In this document: positions 8,669 to 63,341 of the stretch, one piece after another
Numbering within the stretch: position 1 is the first letter of the stretch
How the letters are laid out: each line of letters begins with the position of its first letter
Assembly (NCBI RefSeq): GCF_000420945.1
Contig: NZ_ATVX01000009.1
Location: 62,001 to 126,000, forward strand
Length of the DNA: 64,000 nucleotides
Reading direction: 5' to 3'
DNA from: Butyrivibrio sp. VCB2006
Lineage (GTDB): Bacteria > Bacillota > Clostridia > Lachnospirales > Lachnospiraceae
Position numbers and translations under genes: made by a program
Notes under the pieces: generated by a model
Database searches by the model: none
Told to the model about the DNA's origin: nothing
The model's input: the letters and a program-made list of their open reading frames with translations, nothing else

Positions 8669-9475
8669 ATGGCAATAAAGATAGCAGTAGCAAATCAAAA
8701 GGGCGGAGTAGGTAAAACCACAACAGCAGTAAACCTTGCAGATGCATTAAGACACTTCAACTATAAGGTACTGTTCATAGATCTTGACCCACAGCATAAC
8801 TCAACCAGCACCTATGGAGCTGTAATAGAAGATGAGAACACCATAGTAGATCTGTTGAAGAAGGACTGTACTGCAAAAGAAGCTATTCAGACAACTCCTT
8901 TAGGAGACATAATCGCAGGAGATGGCCTTCTGGCAACAGAAGAGAACTACTTTAATTCACAAAAAGCCAGAGAGAGGATTCTTAAGAGCCAGTTAAAAGA
9001 ACTGGAAGATGATTACGATTTCATCATCATGGATACACCGCCAAACCTTGGAATCTATATGATAAATGCTCTTACAGCCGCTGATGGCTGCATTATTCCT
9101 ATAAAAGCAGAGCAATATGCTATAGATGGTCTTGGACTTCTTATTGAGACAATAAACGAAGTAATTGATCTTTTAAATGAAAACCTCAAAATCTATGGTG
9201 TCCTGATGACTTCATATGACGCAAGAAATGGTCTGGATGTAGGAATAAAAGAAGCTCTTCCGGAAGTGGGCGAAGCAAGAGGATTTAAAGCATTCGATAC
9301 ACAGATCCGTATCAGCCAGGATGTTAAGAAAGCCCAGGCAATCAGAGATTCCGTTGATGAAGACGGCAACCTTATAGTGGCAAACAGATCACTTTTTGAA
9401 AACTTTAAAGCAAGTAACGCAGCTGTAGACTATGTTAATTTCACAAAAGAAGTATTGGAGGTAATCAATGGCTAA
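8669..9475 (+). CDS. parA: ParA partition ATPase
   Basis: A 268-residue Walker-type ATPase that segregates plasmid copies over the nucleoid. It has the deviant Walker A motif near the N-terminus (KGGVGKTTTAVNLA, residues 11-24), an A-prime motif (DLDPQHNST) and a Walker B region (DFIIMDTPP, about 117-125). It lacks an N-terminal helix-turn-helix extension, placing it with type Ib (short) ParA proteins, whose partner is a small RHH protein, as found next door. The Shine-Dalgarno AGGAGG precedes the ATG, and CTATTAG sites lie within 35 bases, so autoregulation by the partner is likely. Confidence 0.95.
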   Translation: MAIKIAVANQKGGVGKTTTAVNLADALRHFNYKVLFIDLDPQHNSTSTYGAVIEDENTIVDLLKKDCTAKEAIQTTPLGDIIAGDGLLATEENYFNSQKARERILKSQLKELEDDYDFIIMDTPPNLGIYMINALTAADGCIIPIKAEQYAIDGLGLLIETINEVIDLLNENLKIYGVLMTSYDARNGLDVGIKEALPEVGEARGFKAFDTQIRISQDVKKAQAIRDSVDEDGNLIVANRSLFENFKASNAAVDYVNFTKEVLEVING

Positions 9476-9875
9476 GCACACACAGAAAAACGATGCACTT
9501 GGAATGTTTGGTAACACAAAACCAGTAAATATCAAGAAACAGCCTGCAAAAGAGACTCCAAAGAAAGCTGAAATTGTAGAGGAAGCAGAGAAGAAAGCTC
9601 CATCACCTAAAGCTGAAAAGGTAGAAGAGAAGATTCCTGAAAAGAAGACAGAACCAAAAGTTGAGCAGGAAGCTAATCCTGTAGAAACACCAGCATTGTC
9701 AGGAATGGGATTAAAGCTTACAATGGATCTGGAGAAGAAAGAACGCACTAAGAGAACAAGATGTTTCTATCTTAGCGATGAAACTTATGAAAAGCTTGTA
9801 GAAATGTCAAAAAAGAGTCAGTCAAATGCTTCTGAGTATCTGGAATTCATTTTAAAGCAGGTACTGTTTAATTAA
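9468..9875 (+). CDS. parB: small ParB-like centromere-binding protein (ribbon-helix-helix)
   Basis: A 135-residue protein overlapping parA by eight bases. The first 85 residues are low-complexity and rich in Lys, Glu and Pro, so probably disordered. The last 45 (from RTRCFYLSDETYEKLVEMSK) look like a ribbon-helix-helix fold. This matches type Ib ParB proteins, in which a flexible tail stimulates ParA and the RHH domain binds phased repeats. The likely target is the CTAATAG array upstream of parA. The family call rests on position, size and fold pattern. Confidence 0.8.
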   Translation: MAKHTQKNDALGMFGNTKPVNIKKQPAKETPKKAEIVEEAEKKAPSPKAEKVEEKIPEKKTEPKVEQEANPVETPALSGMGLKLTMDLEKKERTKRTRCFYLSDETYEKLVEMSKKSQSNASEYLEFILKQVLFN

Positions 9876-36737: not shown

Positions 36738-37916
36738 TTAGCTTGGCTTATGGAGCAAAAACTCTGGAATTTGCAGTTGGACAGGCTTCGGCTTTGGTTT
36801 CGACTGAAGAGTAGAAACAGTCGGGATGTCTGATGCCTGCTTTGCATTCTTTAGGAAGTCCAGGTTGGGATTTATCTGAGGAGCGGGCTCTTTAGGCGTG
36901 ACGAGTACTTTTGTGGCAAATTCTTTTGGGTCAGGAGTTGAGGGTTCCTGAACAGTAGAAACCTGCTTCATTCCAGTTGCAATAACTGTTACGACTATTT
37001 CCTCAGAAGATGGATCGCCGCTTACAGTACCCCAGAAGATGTTAACATTGTCGCCAGCCTGCTCTCTTATGTAGGAAACAGCTTTATTAAGAGCAACAAG
37101 GTCGACTCTTCCGCTAGTGTTCAGAAGTATATTGGATGCTCCGGTTATTCTGGTGTCGAGAAGTTGAGAGCTGATAGCTTTTTCTACAGCATCAACTATT
37201 GTCTCTTCTCCGGAAGCTATTCCGATGCCAAATAAGCCGTAACCTTTGTCTTTAAGTGTGGATCTGAGGTCGTTAAAGTCAAGGTTTATTGTTCCGTGAT
37301 TGAAGATGATATTAGTGATGCCTTCGACTGTGTATCTCAGAACTGAATCACACAGGGTGAAGGCTTCATCAAGAAAGAACTGCTTATCAGTGATTGTGAG
37401 GAGCTTGTCATTAGGAATGACCAGCAGAGTGTCGATGTTCTGCTCAAGTTTTTTTAACCCCGTCTGAGCTGCATAGACTCTGGGCTTGCTCTCGAAAGAG
37501 AAGGGCATTGTAACTACTGCAACGGTAAGGATTCCCAGGTTTTTACAAATCTGAGCTACGACCGGAATGGCGCCGGTTCCAGTGCCGCCACCCATTCCGC
37601 AGGTTAGGATTACCATATTTGCATCATGGACGAGCTCTGCTATATCTTCTTCGCTCTCTTTTGCGGCGGACTCCCCTACAGTAGGGTCGCCGCCGGCACC
37701 GAACCCTTGCGTGAGTTTTGTGCCGAGCTGAAGTCGTTTGGTGGCTGGACATTTATCCAGAGTCATGGAATCAGTATTAAGTGCTGCGTATGTAACATAA
37801 TCGGATGCCTTTTCGATCATCCTTGTTATGGCGTTGTTTCCCCCACCGCCAATGCCAATGACCATGACTTTTGGCATGGTTTTGCTGTTTGCAAAAGATT
37901 CTTTTATCTCAAGCAT
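36738..37916 (-). CDS. ftsZ: plasmid-encoded FtsZ
   Basis: A 392-residue tubulin-family GTPase. The glycine-rich P-loop is [10 protein letters not shown], the tubulin signature GGGTGTGA, and the T7 loop NLDFNDLR keeps the GTP-hydrolysis residues. After a flexible linker (about 320-380) it ends with [10 protein letters not shown], close to the FtsZ C-terminal peptide that binds FtsA and other partners. It is thus a full FtsZ, not a TubZ or RepX. The ATG at 37916 follows GGGAGG. It is divergent from an XRE/ImmA pair over palindromic operators. Confidence 0.92.
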
Positions 37917-38080
37917 GTTTACCTCCCGTTTGCACAAGTGCAAGTTTGGCGTAATGATGATTTGCATTTATGCAAGTAATGTTATGATTTACAATATAGC
38001 GTTTATGCAAATCAATGTCAATAATAATTTGCATAAATGCAAATTTTGGTGTATGATGTACCACAGACGAGGTAACGCAT
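37917..38080. promoter_or_regulatory. divergent ftsZ / XRE promoter with TTGCAY-RTGCAA operators
   Basis: Three 14-base palindromes: TTGCACAAGTGCAA (37930-37943), TTGCATTTATGCAA (37962-37975) and TTGCATAAATGCAA (38029-38042), plus a weaker TAGCGTTTATGCAA (37997-38010). They are spaced about 32-35 bases, three helical turns. The XRE regulator at 38081 is the obvious binder, giving joint control of ftsZ and itself. Confidence 0.75.
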
Positions 38081-38978: not shown

Positions 38979-39012
38979 TTGCTATTATGTGAGTAGAAGA
39001 GGAGCACTGGTC

Positions 39013-39660
39013 ATGAGACGGTTGATTAAATCAAAGGACAATTTCATAACATGTCCATTAGAAAATATGTCTCTTAGAGTAGTTTTAGGGGAGCATTTTA
39101 TCCTTAAGGAGGATGAAGCCATAGTCTCAGATCCATTGTATAAAGTGATACCCAGTACTCCTGATGTCTTAGATGGTGAGCTTACACCATTGGATATAGA
39201 TCTTTTCATATGTGGTGATTATTCCTGGTACATTACGTACTGTGGAGATATGCAGCTTTCCGAAAGCGGCTTTGATCCAAGAAAGGTTTATGCAATTTCG
39301 GTGTTTTATGAAGAGGAAAGTTGCGGTAATAAAATGACGCTCCTGGCAAGAAGAGTTATTGCTAAGGATGAAAATGACAGAGAGGCCAACCTTCGTCTAA
39401 AGAATGATGTAAGTATGGCTCTTTATGAGCATCTTTCATATTTAAGGGATAATCGTATCGGCTGGATAGAAGCGGGTGATAATCTGGAAAAATGTGTCAG
39501 TATGGTATATACGCTCAAGGAAGTAATTGATCCGGAAGATTTGATGATAGAGGGTGTATTTAAGGATATGGTCATTAGCTTGGACCAGTTTCATTACGAT
39601 AGAACTCTGAAAAATGGAGAAGTGGCCTGGCTAATAGCCTATGGCCATAGGGATTGGTAA
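39013..39660 (+). CDS. protein of unknown function
   Basis: A 215-residue soluble protein without a recognised domain; mixed alpha-beta pattern with LDIDLFICGDYSWYITYCGD and ISVFYEEESCGNKMTLLARR. The ATG at 39013 follows GAGGAG by eight bases. An in-frame extension to 38920 would have to translate through the hairpin and overlap immA, and is rejected. It lies between two A-loop hairpins as its own cassette. Confidence 0.6.
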   Translation: MRRLIKSKDNFITCPLENMSLRVVLGEHFILKEDEAIVSDPLYKVIPSTPDVLDGELTPLDIDLFICGDYSWYITYCGDMQLSESGFDPRKVYAISVFYEEESCGNKMTLLARRVIAKDENDREANLRLKNDVSMALYEHLSYLRDNRIGWIEAGDNLEKCVSMVYTLKEVIDPEDLMIEGVFKDMVISLDQFHYDRTLKNGEVAWLIAYGHRDW

Positions 39661-39670
39661 AGAGCTTGAG

Positions 39671-39704
39671 GTGATGTGCTAAAAAAGGCACATCGCTTTT
39701 TTTA
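39671..39704 (+). terminator. A-loop hairpin terminator
   Basis: A 10-bp stem with two G-U pairs (39671-39680 with 39687-39696), loop AAAAAA, then a T-run TTTTTTT. Same GTGCTAAAAAAGGCAC core as at 43271 and 44813. Confidence 0.8.
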
Positions 39705-39839
39705 TTGTATTGCTGAAAGAAGTATAAATAATGTATTAAAAAGCGTTAACAAATGAACTTTCTTCGAATCGAGAGATGTAAAATGGACATGAAAACTGAT
39801 TTACTTGATAGCAACGATAAAGATTTGGAGGATTGCTCC

Positions 39840-40826
39840 ATGTACGGAACCGGCACTAAGAAAATGCTGAACATGCTTATTCTGGATATTCTGAAAGAGT
39901 ATTCCGACAGTGAGCATAGGTTGCTCCAGCAGGATATCATAGATCTGTTGATGTCCAATTATGGCTTTAGCTGTGAAAGAAGGGCGGTAAGCAACAACAT
40001 AAAATGCCTTAAGGAAATGGGTTATGACATTGTTGCAGACAAAGGGTATTATCTAAAAAGCCGCGAGTTTACTGATGCGGAGCTGCGTCTTTTAATTGAC
40101 AGTATATTTTCGTCCGGTTCTACCACAGATAAGGAAGCTCATCGCTTGGTAAAAAAGCTGGAGAGCTTTTCTAATAAGTACTTCAAATCTCATGTTTCTC
40201 ATATACATACTTCTTCAAGCGGCATGAATACAGCTAATTCACAGGTGATGGATTCAATAGCCATAATTGATACAGCTATTTCAAAGGGCAGGAAGATAAG
40301 CTTTTCCTATCTTCAATATGGTATTGACTTTAAGCTTCATCCCAAGCGCAGTGATCGGTATGTGGCGAGCCCATATCAGATGGTAAATCACAGGGGCAGA
40401 TACTATCTTATTGCTAATTATGAGGGAAAAGAAAACATTTCTCATTTCAGGATAGACAGGTTCAGTGATGTGGAGATTCTTGATGAAAAGCGTAGGCCAA
40501 TTAACAGCTTTGAGGGTTATGAGAATGGACTAGATATGTCTAAGTTTCTCTCTGAGCATGTTTATATGTATGGCGGCAAGAGCATACATGTGAAATTTAG
40601 GATAAATGAGCGCTTCATGGATAATCTGATAGACAATTTTGGCACGAACTTCAGGGCAGATCCTGATGGTGAAGAGGATATGATCGTATCCTTAAAAAGT
40701 AATCCAGACGCATTCTTCTATTGGGCGTTGCAATATGGCTTAAATGTGGAAGTGTTGGAGCCGGAGAGCATGAGAGAACGGATACTGAAGGCATGTAGAG
40801 AGATAGAGGCTAAGTATAAGAAATGA
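39840..40826 (+). CDS. WYL-domain transcriptional regulator
   Basis: A 328-residue regulator with an N-terminal winged helix (about 8-75, LLQQDIIDLLMSNYGFSCERRAVSN) and a WYL domain (about 130-210, with SPYQMVNHRGRYYLIAN and SHFRIDRF), plus a C-terminal WCX-like part. WYL proteins sense ligands, often nucleotides or nucleic acids, and often control defence loci. The ATG at 39840 has GGAGG eight bases before it; two earlier ATGs lack one. It overlaps the metallohydrolase gene by four bases (ATGA). Confidence 0.85.
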   Translation: MYGTGTKKMLNMLILDILKEYSDSEHRLLQQDIIDLLMSNYGFSCERRAVSNNIKCLKEMGYDIVADKGYYLKSREFTDAELRLLIDSIFSSGSTTDKEAHRLVKKLESFSNKYFKSHVSHIHTSSSGMNTANSQVMDSIAIIDTAISKGRKISFSYLQYGIDFKLHPKRSDRYVASPYQMVNHRGRYYLIANYEGKENISHFRIDRFSDVEILDEKRRPINSFEGYENGLDMSKFLSEHVYMYGGKSIHVKFRINERFMDNLIDNFGTNFRADPDGEEDMIVSLKSNPDAFFYWALQYGLNVEVLEPESMRERILKACREIEAKYKK

Positions 40827-42223
40827 TTAAAACCTATGAAAACATTAAAATTTTTCAGGGCGATCAGATTGGCGGTTGCGTAACTGTGATATCTTCCACA
40901 GTCAATGGTAAAACTCACAGGATTATGATAGATTATGGCTCCTCGTTGGAAGGAAGTGGAACAGTAAAAGATTTTGATTACCCCTGGGACAAAGAGCCGA
41001 TAGACGCTGTGTTCTTTACTCATTATCATGGCGATCATGTTGGTCGTATCGGTGAGATTCCAAAGAGCGTGAAGACGCTTTATATGGGTGAGACTGCACG
41101 AAAGGTAATGATCAACATTCAACGTGCTCTGACTCGGACAAAGGATGGAGACGCTGCAAGAGCGGAATTAGAACTTCTTAATGACGACGGAAGGATTCGC
41201 ACCTTCAAGAAGGCCAGGTGTATTTATAAGCACATAACGGATATTCCAGGATTCAAGATTGAACCCTATAGTGTGGACCATTCTGCATATGATGCATATA
41301 TGTTCCTCATAGAGGTGGAGGATGACTCAGTACCTGGTGGCAAGACGATAATCTTGCACACCGGAGATTTCAGAGGCCATGGCAGAAGGGGTAAAGCTAT
41401 GCTTCCGGTAATAAACTACTACATCCGTAGATATGGAAACAAGGAAGGTACAGGAAAACCCAAGAGAGATGTGGATGTACTTATTACTGAAGGAACAATG
41501 ATCAGTAGATCCGATGAGCCGGTTCTAACTGAATTCGAGCTTCAGTTAGAGGCGACGAAGTATCTGCATGAGCACAAATATGCTTTCTTGATCTGCTCGT
41601 CCACCAATCTTGATTCCCTTGCAAGCTTTTACCAGGCAGCGCAGGATGCGTCTGTTCCTTACGGTAGATATCTTTATACCTACAATAACTATTTCAAAAC
41701 ACAGCTAGATACATTCACAAAGACCGCTGGCAAGTATACTGATCTCTACAAGTTCGAGAATGTATATGAGTTGGAATTGGAAAGAGAGCTTAAGAGGCCT
41801 GAGTGGACAAAGAAAAAGACACAGAAAGAACTTATGGAATACACGGGTTTTCTTGCCGTAATTAAACCAGCTGAGTGGTGTGAGAAGTTTGTTGATCCTT
41901 TTATTGAAGATTATAAGAATGGACACATAAATGAGATGCCTGTAATAATCTATTCAATGTGGGACGGCTATATAGACAAAACAAAGGGTGCCAGAAAAGA
42001 TGAATGGATTAAGTTCATAGAGCGCCAGGAAGCTAAAGGCGTAGAAATCAAGCATCTTCATACGAGTGGCCATGCATCGGTGCAGATGCTCACCGATGTA
42101 ATAAAGGCAGTTAATCCAACAAGAGCTGTCATTCCAATGCATACAGAGGATGCGGAAGGATTTAAGTATCTGGATATGGATGAGGGATTAAAAGACAAAG
42201 TGTTTATAGAAAGGAGCTGCTGA
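40823..42223 (+). CDS. metallo-beta-lactamase/beta-CASP-like hydrolase
   Basis: A 466-residue metallohydrolase. The metal motif THYHGDHVG (HxHxDH) is near residue 68; further ligands are in LHTGDFRGHG and, at the C-terminus, TSGHASVQM and IPMHTED, which fit a beta-CASP-type nuclease such as RNase J or a Cft2-like enzyme. It is probably a DNA or RNA nuclease. Its start overlaps the WYL stop (ATGA) and its stop overlaps the next start (TGATG), so the three genes form one tight operon. Confidence 0.82.
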   Translation: MIKTYENIKIFQGDQIGGCVTVISSTVNGKTHRIMIDYGSSLEGSGTVKDFDYPWDKEPIDAVFFTHYHGDHVGRIGEIPKSVKTLYMGETARKVMINIQRALTRTKDGDAARAELELLNDDGRIRTFKKARCIYKHITDIPGFKIEPYSVDHSAYDAYMFLIEVEDDSVPGGKTIILHTGDFRGHGRRGKAMLPVINYYIRRYGNKEGTGKPKRDVDVLITEGTMISRSDEPVLTEFELQLEATKYLHEHKYAFLICSSTNLDSLASFYQAAQDASVPYGRYLYTYNNYFKTQLDTFTKTAGKYTDLYKFENVYELELERELKRPEWTKKKTQKELMEYTGFLAVIKPAEWCEKFVDPFIEDYKNGHINEMPVIIYSMWDGYIDKTKGARKDEWIKFIERQEAKGVEIKHLHTSGHASVQMLTDVIKAVNPTRAVIPMHTEDAEGFKYLDMDEGLKDKVFIERSC

Positions 42224-43245
42224 TGATTGAAAAGAATATTCGCGCCTTATCAAAGGATTTTATGGAGGATTTGCTTGAGGGTCCTTTAACACCTCTTCTT
42301 CAGCGAGTATTAAAAGATGATACTTTATGCATGGAACTGAGAGGAAAGACTGTGGATATCTATTATAGAGGCGGTGCATTATATGTTGTTGAAGAGCTAG
42401 GCAATCATAAATATAAAGTTTCGTATAATAGGAATTATGATGGTGATTCTGATATGAGTGATAAGGAGGCGGATCTTGTAGAAATCAAGACGATTGGCCA
42501 GGCAGTGGAGGATGTTCCAAGGCATAAGCAGGATATGGACTTTTATTTTGCCAAACATCAGAAACTTGAACGCGAATTCCAACAATTGATAGTGCGGGAA
42601 AATAATAATTCTGGAAAAGTCACGGATGCAACAGATTATTATATTCTTGATATTGAATATGCCTTTAATGGAAGTAATGATTGCGGAGATAAGATAAGTG
42701 CAAGGTATGACATGTTGGCAGTAAGATGGCCATCTGAAGGACCAGCGCGAAAAAAGCGAGATAGTTTACCAATCTCTTTTATAGAAGTTAAATATGGAGA
42801 TGGTGCTATGGGTAGTGGAACAGATTTATCTGTGGCAGGAATACGTACGCATATTAATGACTATATTATTTTTCGGAAAGATAATGCGTTGCTCAATCAT
42901 CTAGCAAATGACATGGCAAAAGTGTTCAATCAGAAACATATGCTTGGTCTTATAAGTAGCTATCCTGAAAAGAGAGGGAAACTAAATATTTCATTATCAT
43001 GTGATAAGCCTGAATTCTTGCTTATGTTAGTGAACCATGATCCAGCAAAGAGTACAATGATTTCAGAAATAAAGGCGGCAATTATGGATTGGAATGATAA
43101 ACCGGAAAGCATTTATCTCGATGAAATAAAAGTGGTTCAATCATCACTTGTGGGTCATGGTTTATATGGATTAGATAGAAATGGGGACAGCAGATTTAAG
43201 AGCATTAGAGAATATTACAAAGAAGTGACTGGTGAAAATATTTAG
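42223..43245 (+). CDS. PD-(D/E)XK-like protein of unknown function
   Basis: A 340-residue protein that overlaps the metallohydrolase gene by one base. The centre contains DYYILDIEYAF, ARYDMLAVRW and, 20 residues on, ISFIEVKYG, an E...D...ExK arrangement expected of PD-(D/E)XK nucleases (about residues 145-190). The N-terminal 110 residues look like a separate small domain. No family name comes to mind. Together with the WYL regulator and beta-CASP enzyme it looks like a nuclease-based system, perhaps defence. Confidence 0.62.
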   Translation: MIEKNIRALSKDFMEDLLEGPLTPLLQRVLKDDTLCMELRGKTVDIYYRGGALYVVEELGNHKYKVSYNRNYDGDSDMSDKEADLVEIKTIGQAVEDVPRHKQDMDFYFAKHQKLEREFQQLIVRENNNSGKVTDATDYYILDIEYAFNGSNDCGDKISARYDMLAVRWPSEGPARKKRDSLPISFIEVKYGDGAMGSGTDLSVAGIRTHINDYIIFRKDNALLNHLANDMAKVFNQKHMLGLISSYPEKRGKLNISLSCDKPEFLLMLVNHDPAKSTMISEIKAAIMDWNDKPESIYLDEIKVVQSSLVGHGLYGLDRNGDSRFKSIREYYKEVTGENI

Positions 43246-43270
43246 TTTATCGGCAAATACGGCAATATAA

Positions 43271-43305
43271 GCAATGTGCTAAAAAGGGCGCATTGCTTTT
43301 TTTAT
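43271..43305 (+). terminator. A-loop hairpin terminator
   Basis: A 10-bp stem with G-U pairs (43271-43280 with 43287-43296), A-rich loop, then TTTTTTT. It ends the WYL operon. Core GTGCTAAAAAGGGCGC is close to that at 39671. Confidence 0.8.
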
Positions 43306-43373
43306 TATATGTTTGATAAATAGCATGTTCGGCGATTATGACTTCAATAACAGAAAAGAAAGGGAAGTAGATA

Positions 43374-44807
43374 ATGGTTAAAGAGATGAAAGATATAGTT
43401 TTATCACAAGAGTATAAATTCGGCGAAGACTATAAGAAATTTACCGTAACAACTCAAAGGAGCGTTGGTGATGGGAGATCTAGTGTGAAGGTAACGGATG
43501 CTACAATCTATGATGGACCTGATGCTGGAATAACAATCCATAACCCCGTTTCGTATTTTTCTGGGCTGTGTGAGGAGGGGCTGTTGAGCGGCTTGGTACC
43601 AGATGGCAAAACTGCTTTGGAAGTATTGGAAAACCTGTGCCAAAGAGGTTTTTCTGAGAAATATTCCAATGCACCTGAGGACGTACATGCACGCCTGGCA
43701 CATGAGATTGAAGTTATAAAACAAAAAGGAATGGTAGGCGGATTCCTTATTATTCAGGATTTCATCAAATATGCGAGATCGAAGAATATTATGATATCTC
43801 CGGGGAGCGGAGCTCTACCAGGTTGCCTTGTATCATATTGCCTTGGAATAACGAGAATAGACCCAATAAAGGAAAACCTTTCTTTTGAACGCTTCTTAAA
43901 CATAGAAAAAGAGACACAATCTTACTGCATAAGAATTGATGCAGAGAAAGGGGGCAAGCCTTTAATATTCGACTATCTTTCTGAAAAGTATGGAAGCGGA
44001 ATGCCTGAGCTTTTAGAAATGTTGGAAGTTAGCATTAAAGAATGGGTGGAGCTTTCGATTGTCAAAGATACTCTTGAGAATATATCAGGGAGCAAAGGGG
44101 AGAGGATAGACTTAGCAGGTATTGATGAAGACGACCCAGCCGTGTTTGACCATCTACTTTCAGGTGACACGGAGGGTATTTTCTTCTTTGACAAGAATGA
44201 TCCGCATTCATATTCAACGTGGTGGCATCTTGATGACAATGGTAAATGGCATGAATATCATGAACCATTGGTAGCTAAGAACGCTGATTTGTATGAGGCA
44301 ATACGGCCTAAAAATATGGATGAGCTCATGGCGGCAATAGCCTTGGACAGGCCTTTGCCTGAAGAACATGTAGGGAAGTATCTGCACAACATAAAGAATC
44401 CGCAGAATATTACATATGAATGTCAGGTGCTCGGAGCAATTTTGGCTACAACATATGGCTGTGTGATCTATCAGGAACAACTTATGAGGATATTACAGGA
44501 TATAGGGGGCTTTTCTCCAGAAAAAAGTGACTTATGCCGTAGAGACTTATCGAAGAGGATGCAATCCACTCTGGAAGAATGGAGAGAGGACTTTGTAAAT
44601 GGAGCTACATCATCAAAGATTATAGGAACTGATACTGCAAATGCCATATTTAACGAGCTTTGGGATGCAGCGAGATGTAGCTTTAATAAATCGCATGTGG
44701 CCGCTTTTTCACTGATGATATATGAAATGGCCTGGCTTAAGGTCCATTATAGATCCGAGTTCATGGAAGCGGTTGAGAAATACAGAGGCAAAAAATCTGA
44801 TATTTAA
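43374..44807 (+). CDS. reduced, catalytically degenerate DnaE-like polymerase III alpha protein
   Basis: A 477-residue relative of the DnaE palm and fingers. Recognisable DnaE segments are GLLSGLVPDGKTALE, the polymerase start PGSGALPGCLVSYCLGITRIDPI (about 140-165), FERFLN (about 171), LLSGDTEGIFFFD, YGCVIYQEQLMRI and FNKSHVAAFSLMIYEMAWLK. The motif that should read PDIDIDF reads YCIRIDA, so both catalytic aspartates are lost, and the KxDxLGL segment with the third is absent. The PHP and C-terminal clamp-binding domains are also missing. It cannot polymerise by the known mechanism; a regulatory or decoy role is inferred. Confidence 0.82.
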   Translation: MVKEMKDIVLSQEYKFGEDYKKFTVTTQRSVGDGRSSVKVTDATIYDGPDAGITIHNPVSYFSGLCEEGLLSGLVPDGKTALEVLENLCQRGFSEKYSNAPEDVHARLAHEIEVIKQKGMVGGFLIIQDFIKYARSKNIMISPGSGALPGCLVSYCLGITRIDPIKENLSFERFLNIEKETQSYCIRIDAEKGGKPLIFDYLSEKYGSGMPELLEMLEVSIKEWVELSIVKDTLENISGSKGERIDLAGIDEDDPAVFDHLLSGDTEGIFFFDKNDPHSYSTWWHLDDNGKWHEYHEPLVAKNADLYEAIRPKNMDELMAAIALDRPLPEEHVGKYLHNIKNPQNITYECQVLGAILATTYGCVIYQEQLMRILQDIGGFSPEKSDLCRRDLSKRMQSTLEEWREDFVNGATSSKIIGTDTANAIFNELWDAARCSFNKSHVAAFSLMIYEMAWLKVHYRSEFMEAVEKYRGKKSDI

Positions 44808-44812
44808 CAGTA

Positions 44813-44848
44813 AAAAGTGATGTGCTAAAAAATGCACATCACTTTTTC
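44813..44848 (+). terminator. A-loop hairpin terminator after DnaE-like gene
   Basis: A perfect 13-bp stem AAAAGTGATGTGC (44813-44825) with its complement (44834-44846), loop TAAAAAAT, ending in TTTTT. Another member of the GTGC-TAAAAAA hairpin family. Confidence 0.8.
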
Positions 44849-44904
44849 TATCATGTGACTATAAAAGTACACGCTGTTTTTAGATTTAGGAAAGGAACAC
44901 AAAA

Positions 44905-46167
44905 ATGAATGATTACTTTGAAGAGATAAAAGGCTACGCAGAAATAAAAAGGGAACTGACTATTATTATTGATATGCTCAATAATCCAGAGGTATACAAA
45001 GAACTTGGTGCGAATATGGATAATGGTGTAATCATTGTGGGCAGTCCCGGGACCGGAAAAAGCACTATGGTAAATAGTTTGATCAAGGCTATAAATCGGA
45101 AGGCATATGTATTAAGGAAAAAGGTCTCAGATGGGAAGTTTTTAGATGAGGTGGTAGAGACATTTAAAACCGCTGCCGAAAATGCGCCCTCCATTGTTTT
45201 CATGGATGATTTGGATAAGTTTTCAGATAAAGATGATAGTGAGGATGCTGAAGAATTTGTTGCTGTACAGTCCTGTATAGATGAGGTAAAAGGTAAAGAT
45301 GTCTTTGTTATTGCAACTGCTAACGGCACGAGAAAGATTCCTGATTCCCTGCTTCGTCCGGGAAGACTTGGGAGGAGAATAAATACTCGAGAGCCAAAGG
45401 ACTATGAGGCTGCAGAGATAGTTAGGTTTTACCTCGACAAAATTGGTATGAAAGGAAAATTGGATGAAGTTTCAATAGCAAAGCTCCTATCAGGAGAGTC
45501 ATGCGCAACACTTGAATGTGTAATAAAAAATGCTGCGATGAATGCTGCTTTTAATAGGCAGAAGGTCGTTGATATGAATAACATAGTTGAGGCCTTTCTT
45601 ACACAAGAGTTTGGAGCAGAATTATTTGATCCACACATGAGCCAGGAGACTTTGACACGTGTGGCATATCATGAAGCTGGACATGCAATGGTGGCTGAAA
45701 TTTTGGATCCTGGTAGTGTAAGTATAGCCTCGATAAGGCAAGCAGATGATGACAAGGCTGGATTTGTAAGGTACTACAGGAGGGAAGAAAAAGAAAGGAC
45801 ATGTGAGTATAGAGAAAACATGATTAAGATCTCCCTTGCTGGAAGAGCGGTTACAGAGCTGGTGTTTGGAGAAGTTGATGAAGGGGCTACTGGTGATCTG
45901 GATAATGCTTTTTCTAGTGCGAGAGTGTTAGCGGATAATCTATGTGTTTATGGATTTCAGAATTGGATTGACGACCGGAGTATTCATGACTTTTCGGCTG
46001 AGAATCGTAATAGAACTATGGCAATGATACTTGAGAGAAACTATATAGAGGTTAAAAAGATTATTGCTGATAACAGACCGCTACTTGAGAGAATTGTAGA
46101 TGAACTTCTGAAAAAAACGACTCTTATTTATTCTGATATTCAGGCAATATGCAGCAGCTTTCGTTGA
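44905..46167 (+). CDS. soluble FtsH-like AAA protease
   Basis: A 420-residue protein with an AAA module (Walker A GSPGTGKST near residue 51, Walker B IVFMDDLDKF near 97, arginine-finger RPGRLGRR near 150) and an M41-type protease domain (HEAGH near 254; third ligand region EGATGDLDNAF near 331). It keeps the FtsH order but lacks both N-terminal membrane segments. So it should be a cytoplasmic ATP-driven zinc protease. It is 13 bases upstream of the ParB-SMC-hinge gene, suggesting joint action. Confidence 0.85.
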   Translation: MNDYFEEIKGYAEIKRELTIIIDMLNNPEVYKELGANMDNGVIIVGSPGTGKSTMVNSLIKAINRKAYVLRKKVSDGKFLDEVVETFKTAAENAPSIVFMDDLDKFSDKDDSEDAEEFVAVQSCIDEVKGKDVFVIATANGTRKIPDSLLRPGRLGRRINTREPKDYEAAEIVRFYLDKIGMKGKLDEVSIAKLLSGESCATLECVIKNAAMNAAFNRQKVVDMNNIVEAFLTQEFGAELFDPHMSQETLTRVAYHEAGHAMVAEILDPGSVSIASIRQADDDKAGFVRYYRREEKERTCEYRENMIKISLAGRAVTELVFGEVDEGATGDLDNAFSSARVLADNLCVYGFQNWIDDRSIHDFSAENRNRTMAMILERNYIEVKKIIADNRPLLERIVDELLKKTTLIYSDIQAICSSFR

Positions 46168-46180
46168 TGGAAGGAGCCTT

Positions 46181-47155
46181 ATGGAAAAAATGAATTGTGA
46201 AATTACTGAAAATATAACTGAAATCGACATAACAGCGGTTAAATATATCGACCAAGAACCTGCAAAAGTAACCAATGAGAGAAATCTGGAAGAACTTGCT
46301 GAGAGTATCAAGGAGGTTGGAGTTATAAATCCCCTCATAGTATATGAGGAAAACGGAGCATACATATTGGGTGGAGGTGTAAGAAGGTGGCTGGCAGCTA
46401 AGATGGCCGGGCTTAAAACTATACCAGCAATAGTCATGCCCAAAGACAATATAGTAAAATTCGCGGACAACGTAGAGGAAGTGAGTGTTAATGATGAAGC
46501 AGTAAGAAGAATTAAAGAACTGTATCAAAAAGAAAGTTCAGAGCTTGCTACTCTCACTAGCTTAACAGAGAGTTATGAGGGTTATAGAGAAAGCGTCAAG
46601 AGGGTTATGAAAAGAAGGGCTGACACCAAAGGAATTGTTGGTGTGGTTGCGGATATCTTTAGGACGGAACCAAAATACGAGACAGCTGTTGAGGTGGCGT
46701 TGGGTGATAGTATTCAGAGCATTGTTACTGATAATGAAGAAACCGCCAAGAAGATGATCAAGTATCTTAGAGAATCCAAGGTGGGAAGAGCCAACTTTAT
46801 TCCGCTTACAGCCGTTGATAACCCTTCACAAGTTAAGACGAAGGAAATCTTTAATGAGCCTGGGGTCCTTGGAACAGTAAATGAGCTGGTTCATACAGAC
46901 CCTCAGTATGAGGGAGTTGCCAAGTTGTTACTGGGTGAGATCATCGCAGTGGACAACATCGATAATGCGGTAAAAGTCGCCTGTAAGTATAAGTACACAA
47001 TAAAGATTGTGACGTTTAATGGGGATTTTATTTCTCCCGGCGGAATTATCAGTGGAGGCGCATTCAAAGATAAGCGAATTGCAAGACGAAGGAAGCTGGA
47101 AGATCTTAAGAGAAATGTTTCTATATACAAAACATATGTTGACGAGTTTTGCTGA
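46181..47155 (+). CDS. fusion of ParB-type N-terminal domain with SMC hinge
   Basis: A 324-residue protein of unusual make-up. Residues about 15-90 match the ParB/Srx N-terminal domain (NLEELAESIKEVGVINPLIV, then GGGVRRWLAAKMAGLKTIPAIV, where ParB has GERRW). Residues about 120-320 match an SMC hinge with the short coils on each side: SYEGYRESVKRV, GIVGVVADIF, YETAVEVALGDSIQSIVT, then LLLGEIIAVDNIDNA and SPGGIISGG. There is no SMC ATPase head, long coil or ParB DNA-binding HTH. AAGGAG precedes the ATG by four bases. It may dimerise through the hinge and bind host SMC or ParB; this is inference. Confidence 0.85.
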   Translation: MEKMNCEITENITEIDITAVKYIDQEPAKVTNERNLEELAESIKEVGVINPLIVYEENGAYILGGGVRRWLAAKMAGLKTIPAIVMPKDNIVKFADNVEEVSVNDEAVRRIKELYQKESSELATLTSLTESYEGYRESVKRVMKRRADTKGIVGVVADIFRTEPKYETAVEVALGDSIQSIVTDNEETAKKMIKYLRESKVGRANFIPLTAVDNPSQVKTKEIFNEPGVLGTVNELVHTDPQYEGVAKLLLGEIIAVDNIDNAVKVACKYKYTIKIVTFNGDFISPGGIISGGAFKDKRIARRRKLEDLKRNVSIYKTYVDEFC

Positions 47156-47236
47156 TAACTGAGATGAGGGGTACAACCCTGTTGTCGCGAGGGGGTGCTA
47201 TTCTTGATAAAACGATACGGAATTGAGGACATAGAA

Positions 47237-53386: not shown

Positions 53387-54775
53387 ATGACTGATGATGT
53401 TTCAATAAGCAATCGAATAGAGGAAAAGTGGGACGAAATTAAGCAGATAGTTCGAAAGGAGTGCTGTCTCACCAATATATCCTATGGCACGTGGATAGAG
53501 CCATTGGAGTTTTTGCGATATACAGATGGCGTGGCTTATGTACTTCTTCCGCAGAACAATGCCATGGCAATGGACTATGTAAAAAACAGGTTTTACAGCT
53601 TTTTTGTTGAAGCTATGGCTGCTGCTGCGGAGCTGGACGGCCTGATAGATGAGTTGTCAGTGGAGTTCACGTTTGACGCTGAAGAAGTAACAGCGAGAAA
53701 CGAAGAAAAGATGTCTGAAGAGAAACTGGCACAGCTAAGGGCGAGCCTGAAACCCAAGTTTACCTTTGAAAGCTTCGTTGTTGGAGGTAGCAACAGGTTT
53801 GCTTATAGCGCTGCTGTGGCTGTAGCTGAAGACCCAGGGGCTATATACAATCCGCTGTTTTTATATGGAGGACCGGGGCTTGGTAAGACACATCTTCTTC
53901 AAGCCATAGGTAATTACATCTGTAGAACGGCGCCTGAGCAGAAAGTCTTATATGTTACTTCTGAGGATTTCACCAATGAGGTTATTGAGTACATCAGGAC
54001 AGGGCAGGTAGATGAACTGCATGAAAAATACAGGACGGTAGATGTACTGTTGATTGATGACGTTCAGTTCATAATTGGCAAGAAGGCTACGCAGCTTGAG
54101 TTTTTCCATACCTTTAATACTTTATATCAGGATGGGAAACAGATAGTTCTTTCCTCGGATCGTCATCCAAAAGAAATAGAGGCTCTGGATGAGAGATTCA
54201 GGTCGCGCTTTGAGATGGGATTGACTTCAGATATCCAAAAGCCCGACTACGAGACCAGAATGGCAATTTTGCGAAAGCTCCATGAGGGAAAAATTCTTGA
54301 TATTGATGACAGCGTTTTTGAGTATATAGCAAATGGGGTTGTTTCTAATGTCAGGGAGCTTGAAGGTGCTTACACAAAGGTTGTTGCTTATTCAAGGCTT
54401 AATAAGTTAGAGCACATTGGAGAAGAAGAGGCAAAGCTCGCTCTCCGGGATGATATCGAGGTTGGAAGAGCAAGAAATATCCCTCCGTCAGTAATCATAA
54501 GCACTGTAGCAGAGCAGTATAACGTGAGTGTTGATCTTCTTAAGTCCAAAAAGAGGAGTAATGATATTGTTCTTCCAAGGCAGCTTGCAATGTATTTAAT
54601 CAGGGAATATACGGATACAACGCTCGCTGGCATAGGAAAAGAGTTGGGTGGAAGAGATCACTCAACAGTAAAGAACAGTATTGAGAGGATAACCGACATG
54701 CTCTCCACAGATGAAGATGTCAATCAAAAGATAGATGTTATCTGTATGAAGCTGAACCTCAACAAAAAGGAGTAG
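53387..54775 (+). CDS. dnaA: plasmid-encoded DnaA replication initiator
   Basis: A complete 462-residue DnaA. Domain I (about 10-85), a short linker, domain III with Walker A (YGGPGLGKTHLL near 166), Walker B (VLLIDDVQF near 223), the arginine-finger box RFRSRFEMGL (near 268), and domain IV with the signature GGRDHSTVKNSIERI (near 430). It should bind the TTATCCACA boxes found at the iteron origin. A plasmid copy may let the replicon set its own initiation timing. It lies between polC and a truncated DnaA-like gene. Confidence 0.96.
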   Translation: MTDDVSISNRIEEKWDEIKQIVRKECCLTNISYGTWIEPLEFLRYTDGVAYVLLPQNNAMAMDYVKNRFYSFFVEAMAAAAELDGLIDELSVEFTFDAEEVTARNEEKMSEEKLAQLRASLKPKFTFESFVVGGSNRFAYSAAVAVAEDPGAIYNPLFLYGGPGLGKTHLLQAIGNYICRTAPEQKVLYVTSEDFTNEVIEYIRTGQVDELHEKYRTVDVLLIDDVQFIIGKKATQLEFFHTFNTLYQDGKQIVLSSDRHPKEIEALDERFRSRFEMGLTSDIQKPDYETRMAILRKLHEGKILDIDDSVFEYIANGVVSNVRELEGAYTKVVAYSRLNKLEHIGEEEAKLALRDDIEVGRARNIPPSVIISTVAEQYNVSVDLLKSKKRSNDIVLPRQLAMYLIREYTDTTLAGIGKELGGRDHSTVKNSIERITDMLSTDEDVNQKIDVICMKLNLNKKE

Positions 54776-54777
54776 TT

Positions 54778-55296
54778 ATGTATGCGAGAAATAGAGTGTA
54801 TACATTTGAAAACTTTGACGTAGACAGAAGAAATAAGTTTGCGTTCGAGGCAGCTAAGGAAGTCACAAACGAACCAGGTGGCAGATTTAATCCTCTTTAT
54901 CTGTATGGGAAAAGATATGACGGCAAGACACATCTGTTAAAGGCAATGGAGCGAGACCTTCGCGAGAAAAAGCCTCTTTTGGATGTCCTATATGTAAGAG
55001 GTGAAGATTTTGATAACGACCTGCTAAGCGCAATTTCTTCAAACCAATATGGGATAGGAATCAAATTGTTCCGCGAAAAGTACCGAAATGTAGATGTGCT
55101 TCTGGTGGATGACATTGATTATTTTATGGAAAGACGAGTGGTCCTAAATGAATTCATAAATACCTTTGATTCCCTTTATTTACAAGGAAAACAAATAGTC
55201 TTTTCAGCAGACAGGAGGCCTACTGACCTGGGGGAGACGGACAAACTGTTCAGAGGAAAGCTTGAAATGGGACTGGTAATAGGGATAAGGAACTAA
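54778..55296 (+). CDS. truncated DnaA-like AAA protein
   Basis: A 172-residue paralogue of the dnaA domain III just upstream, starting two bases after the dnaA stop. It matches from YTFENFDVDRRNKFAFEAA through Walker B (VLLVDDIDYF) to the region of the arginine finger (KLFRGKLEMGL instead of RFRSRFEMGL), then ends. Walker A reads GKRYDGKTH, lacking the GxGKT glycine. DNA-binding domain IV and domain I are absent. It may bind DnaA and modulate it, as Hda or SirA do by other means. That function is inference. Confidence 0.85.
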   Translation: MYARNRVYTFENFDVDRRNKFAFEAAKEVTNEPGGRFNPLYLYGKRYDGKTHLLKAMERDLREKKPLLDVLYVRGEDFDNDLLSAISSNQYGIGIKLFREKYRNVDVLLVDDIDYFMERRVVLNEFINTFDSLYLQGKQIVFSADRRPTDLGETDKLFRGKLEMGLVIGIRN

Positions 55297-60311: not shown

Positions 60312-60363
60312 ATCTCTTTTGTAATATGTTGAATGAAAAAGAAAAGTGAATAGGAAAAGTCTT

Positions 60364-61710
60364 ATGAAAAGGAAGGATAAATCAAATAGTGAGTTCTCTG
60401 CAGGGAGTGAATTCTCCGCAAGGAGCGGAAACAAGTATTCAATACAAAGATTGATTGGCGAGGGTGGTCAAGGTTGCGTTTACGAGGCTTCTTGCGAGGG
60501 AGAAAAATATGCCCTCAAGTGGTATAAAACAGGAACGCAGGGAAGACCTGAACAGAAAGAAATCATAGAAAACCTGATCAGAAGAGCAAAACCGTCTGAG
60601 GCCTTTTTGTGGCCAATTGACCTAATTGAGCATGGGGATGAGTTCGGATATGTCATGCTATTAAGGCCGCCAGGGTATTTAAGCATTCCGGCTTTACTGT
60701 CAAGAAAAGCGGAGCCGTCATTTATGACAATCTGCAAGATTGGATATAATCTCGTGGCAAATTACAGAAAGCTCCATGCGAGCGGATATAGTTATTGCGA
60801 TATAAATTTCGGCAATGTTTTTTTTGACGCTGAGACAGGTGATGTTCTGATATGTGACAACGATAATGTGACTATAGATGGCATGAAGCAATCACTGGCA
60901 ATGGGAACTATAGGGTTTATGGCACCCGAATTGGTAATGGCATGTGAAAATCATACGTCAGAGCGCCCATCAACAGTCACTGATTTACATTCGCTTGCGG
61001 TGTTATTGTTTTATCTTTTTATGATTGCAGATCCATTCCAAGGGGAGCTTGTCAATAAGATAAGATGCTATGATCTGGCGGCAAAAGTTCAGATTTATGG
61101 CAAGAATCCAGTGTTTATTTTTGATCCTGTAGATAAGAGCAATAGACCAGTTAAAGGCATTGATGACAATGCCATTATTTTTTGGAATTTGTATCCGGAT
61201 TATTTTAAGGATTTGTTTGTCAGGACCTTTACAGACGGTTTACATTCACCCAAAAAGCGAGTGCAGGAAATTGAATGGCAGAATGCAATCATCAAAATGA
61301 TGGATGAGATGATCACTTGCCAGAATTGTGGGGCGGAAGTGTTTTACAATCCACTGATAGAAAAGTCGCATGCGGCTCATACGTGCTGGTTTTGTGGGAA
61401 CTCTTTATGTGTTCCAGCCAAGCTTGAAATTGGTGATATGACAATACTGTTGAATTCTGAGTCAAAGATATCAGAGCACCATATTAAAAGAAATTACAAC
61501 ATGGAAAAGACAGTTGCAAGAATTACAAGGCATCCAACTTATTCGAATGTCTGGGGACTAAAAAATGAAAGCACACAAAACTGGATATATGAAAACAGTA
61601 GTGGTGAACAACAAATAGTAAAACCAGGAAAGTCTGCAACAGTTTCTCACAATGCAAAAATACTGTTTGGAGAAGCAACTGGAGTATTTAGAACGAAAGG
61701 GGAACAATAA
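60364..61710 (+). CDS. serine/threonine protein kinase with C-terminal zinc finger
   Basis: A 448-residue kinase. Gly loop IGEGGQGCVYEA (about 26-37), catalytic Lys in YALKW, catalytic loop SYCDINFGNVFFD (about 140-152; the usual HRD Arg is replaced) and metal Asp in ICDNDNV where DFG is expected. After the kinase domain come two Cys pairs (CQNCGAEV and CWFCGNSL, about 320-346) and a C-terminal beta region. With the next two genes it forms a TerY-P-type triad. The ATG at 60364 is preferred over a GTG 18 bases upstream. Confidence 0.85.
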   Translation: MKRKDKSNSEFSAGSEFSARSGNKYSIQRLIGEGGQGCVYEASCEGEKYALKWYKTGTQGRPEQKEIIENLIRRAKPSEAFLWPIDLIEHGDEFGYVMLLRPPGYLSIPALLSRKAEPSFMTICKIGYNLVANYRKLHASGYSYCDINFGNVFFDAETGDVLICDNDNVTIDGMKQSLAMGTIGFMAPELVMACENHTSERPSTVTDLHSLAVLLFYLFMIADPFQGELVNKIRCYDLAAKVQIYGKNPVFIFDPVDKSNRPVKGIDDNAIIFWNLYPDYFKDLFVRTFTDGLHSPKKRVQEIEWQNAIIKMMDEMITCQNCGAEVFYNPLIEKSHAAHTCWFCGNSLCVPAKLEIGDMTILLNSESKISEHHIKRNYNMEKTVARITRHPTYSNVWGLKNESTQNWIYENSSGEQQIVKPGKSATVSHNAKILFGEATGVFRTKGEQ

Positions 61711-61712
61711 AA

Positions 61713-62402
61713 ATGAAACGACCAGGAAGAGAGTTGGCTAATAGATCTTTACACTTTATTTGGATGGTTGATTGCTCAGGATCAATGTCAGGGGACAAGA
61801 TATCAGCCGCAAATTACGCTATTAAGGATGCCATACCGGGTATGAGGCAAGCTGCTGAAGAAAATCCTAATGCGCAGCTTTTGGTAAGAGCGTTGAGGTT
61901 TGATAATGGTGCGTCCTGGATAACTCCTGCACCTACGCCCGTTGAAGATTTTGATTGGGATCCATTGGATGCAGCAGGTCTTACTGCGATGGGAGCTGCA
62001 TATGGGCTGCTATGCGATCAGCTGGAGATGCCTCCGATGCCAGAAAGAGCTCTTCCACCTGTAATTGTTATGCTCTCTGATGGTAATCCTACAGACGAGT
62101 ATAAAGCAAATCTGGATAGACTATTAAAGCTTGCGTGGGGAAAGAAAGCAGTTAGAATTGCTATCGCAATTGGAAATGATGTGGATAGAGCCATATTGGA
62201 GGAATTCACATGTAATCCAGAACTTGTTTTAAAGGCTGAGAATGCAGCGCAATTATCAAGTATGATCAAATGGGCTTCCACTGTCGCTAAGCAAGTATCT
62301 TCTCCAGTCAGCATGGCTGTTACGTCGGATACTGATGGTGGTGATATGCCAATCGATATATCTGGCATTTCCAGTGGTGATGCCTCAGTTTCTGTTTGGT
62401 GA
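61713..62402 (+). CDS. von Willebrand factor A protein (TerY-like)
   Basis: A 229-residue VWA-domain protein with an intact MIDAS motif (DCSGSMSG, about 19-26) and the later MLSDGNPTDEY. TerY proteins with this domain occur with a kinase and a PP2C phosphatase in tellurium-resistance and stress loci. It starts two bases after the kinase stop. It likely acts as a metal-dependent scaffold. Confidence 0.88.
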   Translation: MKRPGRELANRSLHFIWMVDCSGSMSGDKISAANYAIKDAIPGMRQAAEENPNAQLLVRALRFDNGASWITPAPTPVEDFDWDPLDAAGLTAMGAAYGLLCDQLEMPPMPERALPPVIVMLSDGNPTDEYKANLDRLLKLAWGKKAVRIAIAIGNDVDRAILEEFTCNPELVLKAENAAQLSSMIKWASTVAKQVSSPVSMAVTSDTDGGDMPIDISGISSGDASVSVW

Positions 62403-62414
62403 TAGGAGCATTCA

Positions 62415-63341
62415 ATGGGGATAAACACATATGCCAAGACGGTTCAAGGATCAAGCCACATCAGAGTCAAGAAAGTGTGTGAAGATTACTCCTGGTATGA
62501 TAAGCACAAGAATATGCGCGATTGGACCGTCTGCGCTGTAGCGGATGGTCATGGAAGTGATAAGTGTAAATATAGCCATGATGGATCAAGACTTGCTGTT
62601 GCAGCTTTCTGTAAAGTGGTTCGCGATGCTATGGAGAATGATTCTGAAACACTAAATCATATGCAGATAAATGAGCTTCTGTGCCAGGAGTTTGTTGTAA
62701 ATGTTAAGCGGGAGTGGAAGAAGAGAGTAATTGAACTCCATTTAGCAAATCAAAGAGAAACGGATAATTCTTCTATGAAGAGGACATCTGTTAAACTGGC
62801 ACATGTTAAAGCCGAGGACATGAACTACTCCAATAAAGAGATTGATTATTTGTTGTATGGAACTACATTGATCGGGGTAGTACAGGACAATGATAATACT
62901 ATGATATTTCAAATTGGAGACGGTGATGCGGTGTATGTGGACAGAAAAGGGGCTGTTCATCTGACAGAAAGCGATAATCTATTAGGCGTTGAAACACATT
63001 CCCTGGCAGAGGAAGATTACACTGATCACACGAAGTTAAAGATCTTGAATTTTGGTAAAACGGAAAAAAATCCGTTCATGATAATTCTAACCACGGATGG
63101 ATTTAGTAATTCATATACAGATGATAAAGCTTTTTTGGACACATGCTTTGAGTATTTTTATTTTGCAAAGAATAAAGGTTTCAAACGGCTATGTGATGGA
63201 TTAGGAGATAATAGGACTGGTTGGCTTAGAGAAATAAGCGATGGCGGTTGTGGTGATGATGTTTCGATTGCAATGCTGTATTATAAGCCAAATATAAAGG
63301 ATTATCTCAGACTTTTCACAAGGAAATACCTGAATGCCTAG
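62415..63341 (+). CDS. PP2C-family protein phosphatase
   Basis: A 308-residue PP2C phosphatase. Metal-binding motifs are ADGHGSDKC (about 43-51), GDGDAVYVD (about 175-183), TTDGFSNS (about 229-236) and GCGDDVS (about 276-282). A 50-residue insertion with many charged residues lies about 85-135. It would reverse the kinase reaction. It starts 13 bases after the VWA gene and overlaps the next gene by eight bases. Confidence 0.9.
   Translation: MGINTYAKTVQGSSHIRVKKVCEDYSWYDKHKNMRDWTVCAVADGHGSDKCKYSHDGSRLAVAAFCKVVRDAMENDSETLNHMQINELLCQEFVVNVKREWKKRVIELHLANQRETDNSSMKRTSVKLAHVKAEDMNYSNKEIDYLLYGTTLIGVVQDNDNTMIFQIGDGDAVYVDRKGAVHLTESDNLLGVETHSLAEEDYTDHTKLKILNFGKTEKNPFMIILTTDGFSNSYTDDKAFLDTCFEYFYFAKNKGFKRLCDGLGDNRTGWLREISDGGCGDDVSIAMLYYKPNIKDYLRLFTRKYLNA

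Follow-up and report, generated by a model that had tools for sequence, protein, structure and literature searches.

ParB recruits SMC to chromosomes, and the interplay between the two is still being worked out. The partners of PadC, a ParB-fold protein of Myxococcus xanthus, are ParA and bactofilins. PadC binds CTP without hydrolyzing it, the residue corresponding to E78 of ParB is replaced, and the ENLQR motif is absent (PMC8494293). In ParB itself, nucleotide binding depends on the GxxR arginine in the P motif, and hydrolysis depends on E78 of GERR and E111 of ENLQR (PMC12704722, PMC8494293). Hydrolysis-dead ParB can still recruit Smc, whereas the G77S and R80A variants cannot (PMC8494293). 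Fusions of the ParB fold carried on mobile elements are already known (PMC12704722), as are headless hinge proteins in eukaryotes (PMC5651269). Here, we describe a Butyrivibrio gene that joins a ParB_N domain to an SMC hinge in a single frame.

The window, by which we mean the whole stretch of 64,000 nucleotides that was analyzed, corresponds to bases 62001–126000 of a 174,459-base contig in a 3.95-Mb genome; its features are listed in Table 1. A sequence-only reading of this DNA had claimed one uninterrupted frame of 324 codons, in which a ParB-type N-terminal domain precedes an SMC hinge with its lead-in and exit segments. The frame has the coordinates and size claimed (347 aa when measured stop to stop), and the profile search that the reading had suggested placed both halves well above the Pfam cut-offs, with 60.6 bits for ParB_N (cut-off 26.3) and 103.2 bits for SMC_hinge (cut-off 22.5) and no third family at E ≤ 0.1. 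Also as that reading had it, the SMC ATPase heads and long arms are absent from this 324-aa protein, which has no SMC_N match in Pfam, and Pfam detected neither the ParB HTH nor the ParB C-terminal dimer domain. In a phmmer search of PDB sequences, SMC hinge chains ranked first (5h69_A, 4.8e-32) and ParB chains were significant too (4umk_A, 5.5e-14). An AlphaFold2 model from a 27-row alignment (mean pLDDT 74, pTM 0.48) consists of a ParB fold at about residues 12–85, a helix at 88–130 that continues as the lead-in coil of SMC, then the hinge and, at 300–323, an exit helix; the domains in this model are credible, their placement relative to each other is not. Among the best 50 of 200 Foldseek matches to the model, the SMC hinges 5h69 and 1gxl were on top, and nucleotide-bound ParB structures (7bnk, 7bnr, 7bm8) and the plant hinge protein DMS3 (6oit) appeared further down. 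SMC homology extends from residue 99 to about 323, and thus the hinge came with its own lead-in and exit coils. The sequence AAGGAG lies 4 nt upstream of the ATG, and the frame starts 13 bp past the stop codon of an FtsH-like protease gene.

Table 1. Features of the fusion gene and its surroundings. Positions are those of the window unless a locus handle (L) precedes them; column 4 gives the basis of the assignment or a remark.
Feature	Position	Strand	Basis or remark
ParA	8669-9475		about 37 kb from fusion
RHH-like ParA partner	9468-9875		Pfam E 0.0017, below cut-off
Stretch exchanged in near-identical G004 plasmid	38992..47166	.	DNA comparison
WYL-domain regulator	39753..40826	+	Pfam
Metallo-beta-lactamase-fold protein	40823..42223	+	Pfam
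PD-(D/E)XK-like pattern protein	42223..43245	+	by eye: D163, E188, K190 invariant in 4 sequences
DNA polymerase III alpha fragment, 477 aa	43374..44807	+	Pfam; catalytic aspartate motif replaced
FtsH-like AAA+ M41 protease, 420 aa	44905..46167	+	Pfam AAA + Peptidase_M41
ParB_N–SMC hinge fusion gene P0001	46181..47155	+	324 codons/aa, single frame
ParB_N fold, residues 10-89	46208..46447	+	Pfam E 1.6e-16, alignment
ParB Box III (ENxQR) remnant, residues 96-100, DNVEE	46466..46480	+	alignment; SMC-derived coil starts here
SMC hinge lead-in coil, residues 99-149	46475..46627	+	SMC alignment
SMC hinge domain, residues 150-266	46628..46978	+	Pfam E 1.5e-29
P286-GG-IIS-GG293 motif	47036..47059	+	alignment
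Exit coil, residues 300-324	47078..47152	+	helix 300-323 in AlphaFold2 model
HTH protein, 220 aa	47195..47857	+	downstream of fusion; also in G004, without fusion there
Shortened polymerase III alpha proteins near FtsH-like genes, Butyrivibrio replicons	43374-44807; L114 11776-12771, 14184-15623
More shortened polymerase III alpha proteins near FtsH-like genes	L107 9630-10592; L108 7427-8635; L111 8807-9775

ParB and SMC relatives were combined in one MAFFT alignment with ParB rows trimmed to 78 residues and SMC rows limited to 10. In an alignment of the ParB half with its relatives, the equivalent of GERRW in the fusion is G66-V67-R68-R69-W70. The sequence-only reading had pointed to GGGVRRW in place of GERRW; the substitution is present, but it amounts to one E-to-V change rather than a new motif. 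The GxxR phosphate motif is retained as G66 and R69 (equivalent to G77 and R80), the E78 equivalent is V67, and ENLQR is mostly lost, reading DNVEE. Aspartate replaces E111 in 16 of 22 aligned GERR-type ParB rows as well, and thus what sets the fusion apart at the ENLQR site is the loss of QR alone. The sequence-only reading had raised ParB-like CTP switching; with E78 and most of ENLQR lost, a switch that hydrolyzes CTP is unlikely, and nucleotide binding without hydrolysis is possible. As 17 of the 28 proteins tested in PMC12704722 showed no binding, nucleotide binding by the fusion is far from certain. In the ParB_N tree, the fusion falls between the GERR-type and GHRR-type groups of ParB, and its branch is long. 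The best ParB of its own genome is 48% identical to the ParB part over 71 residues; the ParB of plasmid pCY186 matches less well, at 38% over 66 aa.

The hinge half shares 60% identity with the SMC of its own genome and up to 62% with other SMCs, and its closest named relatives are from Butyrivibrio. The four-glycine motif is retained (P286-GG-IIS-GG293), with the spacing of B. subtilis G657, G658, G662, and G663, an equivalence drawn from spacing and not from an alignment with B. subtilis SMC. Mutations at these four B. subtilis glycines reportedly break the hinge dimer. They are described as mutations of the hinge dimerization interface in PMC5526789. Elsewhere the hinge has diverged: G176D and R253E depart from residues invariant across 58 distinct SMC rows, and 17 of 74 near-invariant columns are changed compared to at most 9 in any of those rows. 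By conservation class, the fusion differs at 12/61 invariant columns, 20/53 columns in the 0.9–1 class, 28/59 in the 0.6–0.9 class, and 29/56 of the most variable columns. The changes at near-invariant columns may weaken dimerization or DNA binding. The hinge tree (59 rows) places the fusion among Butyrivibrio SMCs on a long branch of 0.87 substitutions per site; its precise position there is weakly supported.

Comparison of the fusion with 15 SMC hinge rows (some mutually identical, drawn from 65 located) gave differences of 0.26–0.29, 0.16–0.19, and 0.53–0.63 at codon positions 1, 2, and 3, respectively. NG86 dN was 0.25–0.28; dS was 1.8–2.9 in 8 rows and was saturated, and hence not computable, in the other 7. 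Third positions differ most and dS is far above dN, indicating that the protein is constrained, but, given its changes at conserved hinge columns, more loosely than a working SMC. The sequence-only reading had held that, if homologues always keep the two parts in separate genes, a sequencing artifact would be indicated. The parts were indeed separate elsewhere, yet a search of the fusion's own genome returned 2 hinge and 5 ParB_N matches, none of them closer to the parts of the fusion. As no closer donor copies were found in the genome, the fusion was not built by misassembly of host genes, and we rejected an assembly chimera. The G+C content of the fusion resembles that of its neighbors.

We searched for further examples in samples of the genus, family, and class, which overlap. 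Within the genus, 76 of 79 genomes yielded 80 hinge matches; the fusion alone lies in a short frame, and all other matches are in frames of at least 634 aa. In the family sample, 7 of 397 genomes gave 8 matches at E ≤ 1e-70, all except the fusion in SMC-length frames. At E ≤ 1e-38, 67 of 391 genomes in the class sample gave a match and, among the matches listed, all except the fusion are in frames of at least 699 aa. When 99 relatives were searched less stringently, 96 gave a match and, among the matches listed, no other short frame spanned both halves. On GTDB contigs, none of 43 relatives had a match starting before residue 66, and none of the 116 plasmid records or 28 phages that match the fusion covers 80% of the query; a distant fusion under the search thresholds could have escaped these searches. 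Scans of viral contigs with exact short patterns, which detect close relatives only, yielded 10 pattern stretches for the fusion, none of them a relative, and nothing for the FtsH-like protein. A viral origin was rejected. By their frames, the two best phage hits (H21 and H22) are SMC genes of full length, and the contigs that carry them also have bacterial housekeeping genes. Three weak hinge matches (G023:C6:1566, G008:C64:15007, and G060:C3:125308) lie in frames of 1,031–1,106 aa separate from the main SMC and are possibly second SMC-like proteins. There is thus one example of the fusion only, so conservation of the fusion itself cannot be demonstrated. The sequence-only reading knew of no described family with this make-up, and this impression stands: our literature search, which covered titles and abstract openings for part of the matching papers, found no ParB_N–SMC hinge combination, and the main text of a 2025 survey of ParB-fold fusions contains neither 'SMC' nor 'hinge' (PMC12704722).

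The contig shares a replication block with pCY186 of B. proteoclasticus B316 (PolC 74%, DnaB 81%, Rep3 76%, and FtsH-like protein 87%), and the window also encodes a TraG/VirD4-type protein, ParA, and two Rep3 proteins. From this gene content, we take the contig to be a megaplasmid related to pCY186. The proteins of pCY186 and pCY360 are described as being mostly of unknown function (PMC2914790). A near-identical plasmid in genome G004 matches the contig on both sides of the fusion region, with 92.7% DNA identity over 1,956 bases on one side and 96.8% over 12,461 bases on the other. Between these flanks, similarity is patchy only and G004 carries a different, partly related gene set, including another metallo-beta-lactamase protein (57%) and a 371-aa protein without a Pfam match. 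The right border of the exchange falls 12 bp past the fusion stop codon, where the 96.8% match resumes. The FtsH-like gene and the fusion are absent from the fetched stretch of the G004 plasmid, and a hinge search of the whole G004 genome found full-length SMC only. The plasmid also encodes a 409-aa member of the FtsZ family with tubulin and FtsZ_C domains (36738-37967), which is 97% identical over the 310 residues covered by the fetched G004 stretch. Elsewhere in the window, a full DnaA (53387-54775) is directly followed by a 172-aa lone DnaA ATPase domain (54778-55296), and genes for a protein kinase, a VWA protein, and a PP2C phosphatase are consecutive at 60346-63341.

Upstream of the fusion, the FtsH-like protease retains the Walker A sequence GSPGTGKST and HEAGH; its AAA domain begins at residue 42 and no membrane segment was seen by eye. 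The product of 42223..43245 has no Pfam match above cut-off. We compared the gene that directly follows the FtsH-like gene, hereafter the slot, across 10 close loci (at least 56% identity, window included). This gene is a replication or segregation homologue in 7 of the 10, with polymerase pieces in four. The slot gene is a polymerase fragment in pCY186 (gap 27), G008 (gap 17), and G103 (gap 9), those of pCY186 and G008 being 88% identical and hence not independent. G104 has an 89-aa polymerase piece (BLAST only, gap 128), G196 a 1,057-aa PolC-type protein that has the domains expected of a polymerase (PHP, palm, finger, and HHH; gap 6), and G408 a DnaA-type ATPase domain joined to an uncharacterized C-terminal part (gap 3; L158 8862-9980). 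The slots of G041 and G055 hold no recognized homologue, and that of the second replicon of G060 holds a PD-(D/E)XK protein (gap 240). A segregation protein thus occupies 1 of the 10 close slots, the ParB–hinge fusion of the window (gap 13).

Polymerase fragments near these FtsH-like genes have lost catalytic residues. Six were aligned: those upstream of the protease in the window (477 aa) and pCY186 (480 aa), a 332-aa fragment of pCY186, those of G008 and G103, and a 323-aa fragment further downstream in G104. None of the six retains either aspartate of PDIDxxF, four carry glutamate at one of them, and the second palm motif is absent from all six in the alignment. At 10 more distant FtsH-like loci (33–38% identity), none had a recognized replication or segregation homologue as the next gene (nine judged by Pfam or BLAST, and L165, 110 aa, by BLAST only); in two, DnaB- or PolC-like genes lie upstream of the FtsH-like gene instead. 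The background rate of such homology, by BLAST to six references, was 7 of 156 frames for C9, counted from base 2001, and 8 of 171 for pCY186, a measure that the 477- and 480-aa fragments escaped. The FtsH-like gene sits amid real replication genes in pCY186 and in the window contig, so clustering alone may account for part of what is seen in the slots; because genes of the replication block are clustered anyway, the pattern is suggestive and not a test.

The reading that we prefer, tentatively and at somewhat under an even chance, is that the fusion is a hinge-dimerized, non-hydrolyzing ParB-fold adaptor or competitor that acts on the ParB–SMC apparatus. We infer a homodimer that would be held by the SMC hinge and would bear two ParB-fold domains on SMC arm stubs. 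These domains may bind nucleotide and would not hydrolyze it, as in PadC; we propose that binding without hydrolysis would make the protein a scaffold rather than a motor or a recycling clamp. Such a scaffold could serve as adaptor or competitor on the segregation apparatus, either the host's or on the plasmid's behalf. Its setting would be a plasmid cassette beside an FtsH-like protease, the slots of sister plasmids holding other pieces or homologues of the replication machine, several of them catalytically dead. A hinge-dimerized carrier of two non-hydrolyzing ParB domains fits the sequence facts. Counting against this reading are the single example, the long hinge branch with its changed near-invariant columns and, for the slot, the possible clustering, the G196 polymerase with its expected domains, the lack of such homologues beside the more distant FtsH-like genes, and the presence of a segregation protein in only one close slot. 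It is rather unlikely that the slot reflects an unnamed Lachnospiraceae plasmid cassette, in which an anchorless FtsH-like protease is paired with an exchangeable, mostly dead mimic that hijacks or guards host machines. That such mimics would comprise polymerase III alpha, the DnaA ATPase domain, and ParB–SMC, with the fusion as one cargo, is likewise doubtful.

Among the alternatives, a plasmid segregation or compaction factor survives best, although we consider it unlikely. The protein would be a hinge-closed mini-clamp with the ParB domains as a nucleotide-held gate, and the adjacent HTH protein would give DNA specificity. The layout is that of ParB, with an N-gate at one end and a dimer domain at the other, and the gene is located in the plasmid's replication block. 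Yet the fusion has no HTH of its own and has lost the hydrolysis motifs, the plasmid carries ParA and an RHH-like partner elsewhere, and the near-identical G004 plasmid retains the HTH gene without the fusion. ParA is not adjacent to the fusion, and a role as the plasmid's own ParB is unsupported with no ParA nearby.

That the fusion is instead a bait or decoy in a conflict cassette, mimicking host SMC and ParB to catch proteins of invading phages or plasmids and coupled to the FtsH-like protease, appears quite improbable. The cassette does differ between near-identical plasmids, it has WYL-regulator, metallo-beta-lactamase, and nuclease-like neighbors, and dead host-like parts occupy the slot of several plasmids. 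However, a PADLOC scan of 10 proteins found no defined system and only partial or weak matches (WYL, IetA via its AAA domain, and LmuA at E 3.1e-5), the fusion itself matched a methyltransferase model at 1.7e-4, and no invader protein is known. That the fusion directly poisons host condensin, its hinge pairing with that of nascent SMC, is very unlikely. The fusion's 60% identity to the host hinge and retained glycine motif would suit a poison, but invariant hinge positions are altered, and subunit exchange between long-armed SMC hinge dimers is described as little, if any (PMC5526789), which weakens the idea. Equally improbable is that the two parts were joined recently by chance and the gene is decaying, or that the assembly is in error. 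The single occurrence and the long branches in both trees would favor this; against it are the open frame with its ribosome site, dS far above dN, neighbor-like G+C content, and the search of the genome, in which no closer donor copies were found.

A natural protein that combines a ParB nucleotide domain with an SMC hinge, free of motor, HTH, and hydrolysis motifs, would be a minimal tool with which to probe each piece. Should the slot pattern prove genuine, megaplasmids may harbor dead, interchangeable copies of replication and segregation parts of the host beside a protease, which would give plasmids a new means of acting on hosts or rivals.

Compared to known systems, the fusion resembles PadC in its ParB fold and in the replacement of the residue at the E78 position; ENLQR is absent from PadC and mostly lost from the fusion. 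We know of no SMC hinge in PadC and, to our knowledge, no ParB domain occurs in DMS3 or SMCHD1. Like the orphan ParB-CTPase-fold fusions described in PMC12704722, the fusion lies away from parAB on a mobile element, has a divergent Box III, and carries an extra domain; an SMC hinge is not among the partners named in the main text of that survey. It shares with DMS3 and SMCHD1 a hinge without SMC ATPase heads; unlike the fusion, both are eukaryotic, and SMCHD1 has a GHKL ATPase (PMC5651269). By sequence, the nearest relative of its hinge is Butyrivibrio SMC and a related ParB_N is found in GERR-type ParB, which, unlike the two halves of the fusion, are encoded by separate genes, the SMC in frames of about 1,190 aa.
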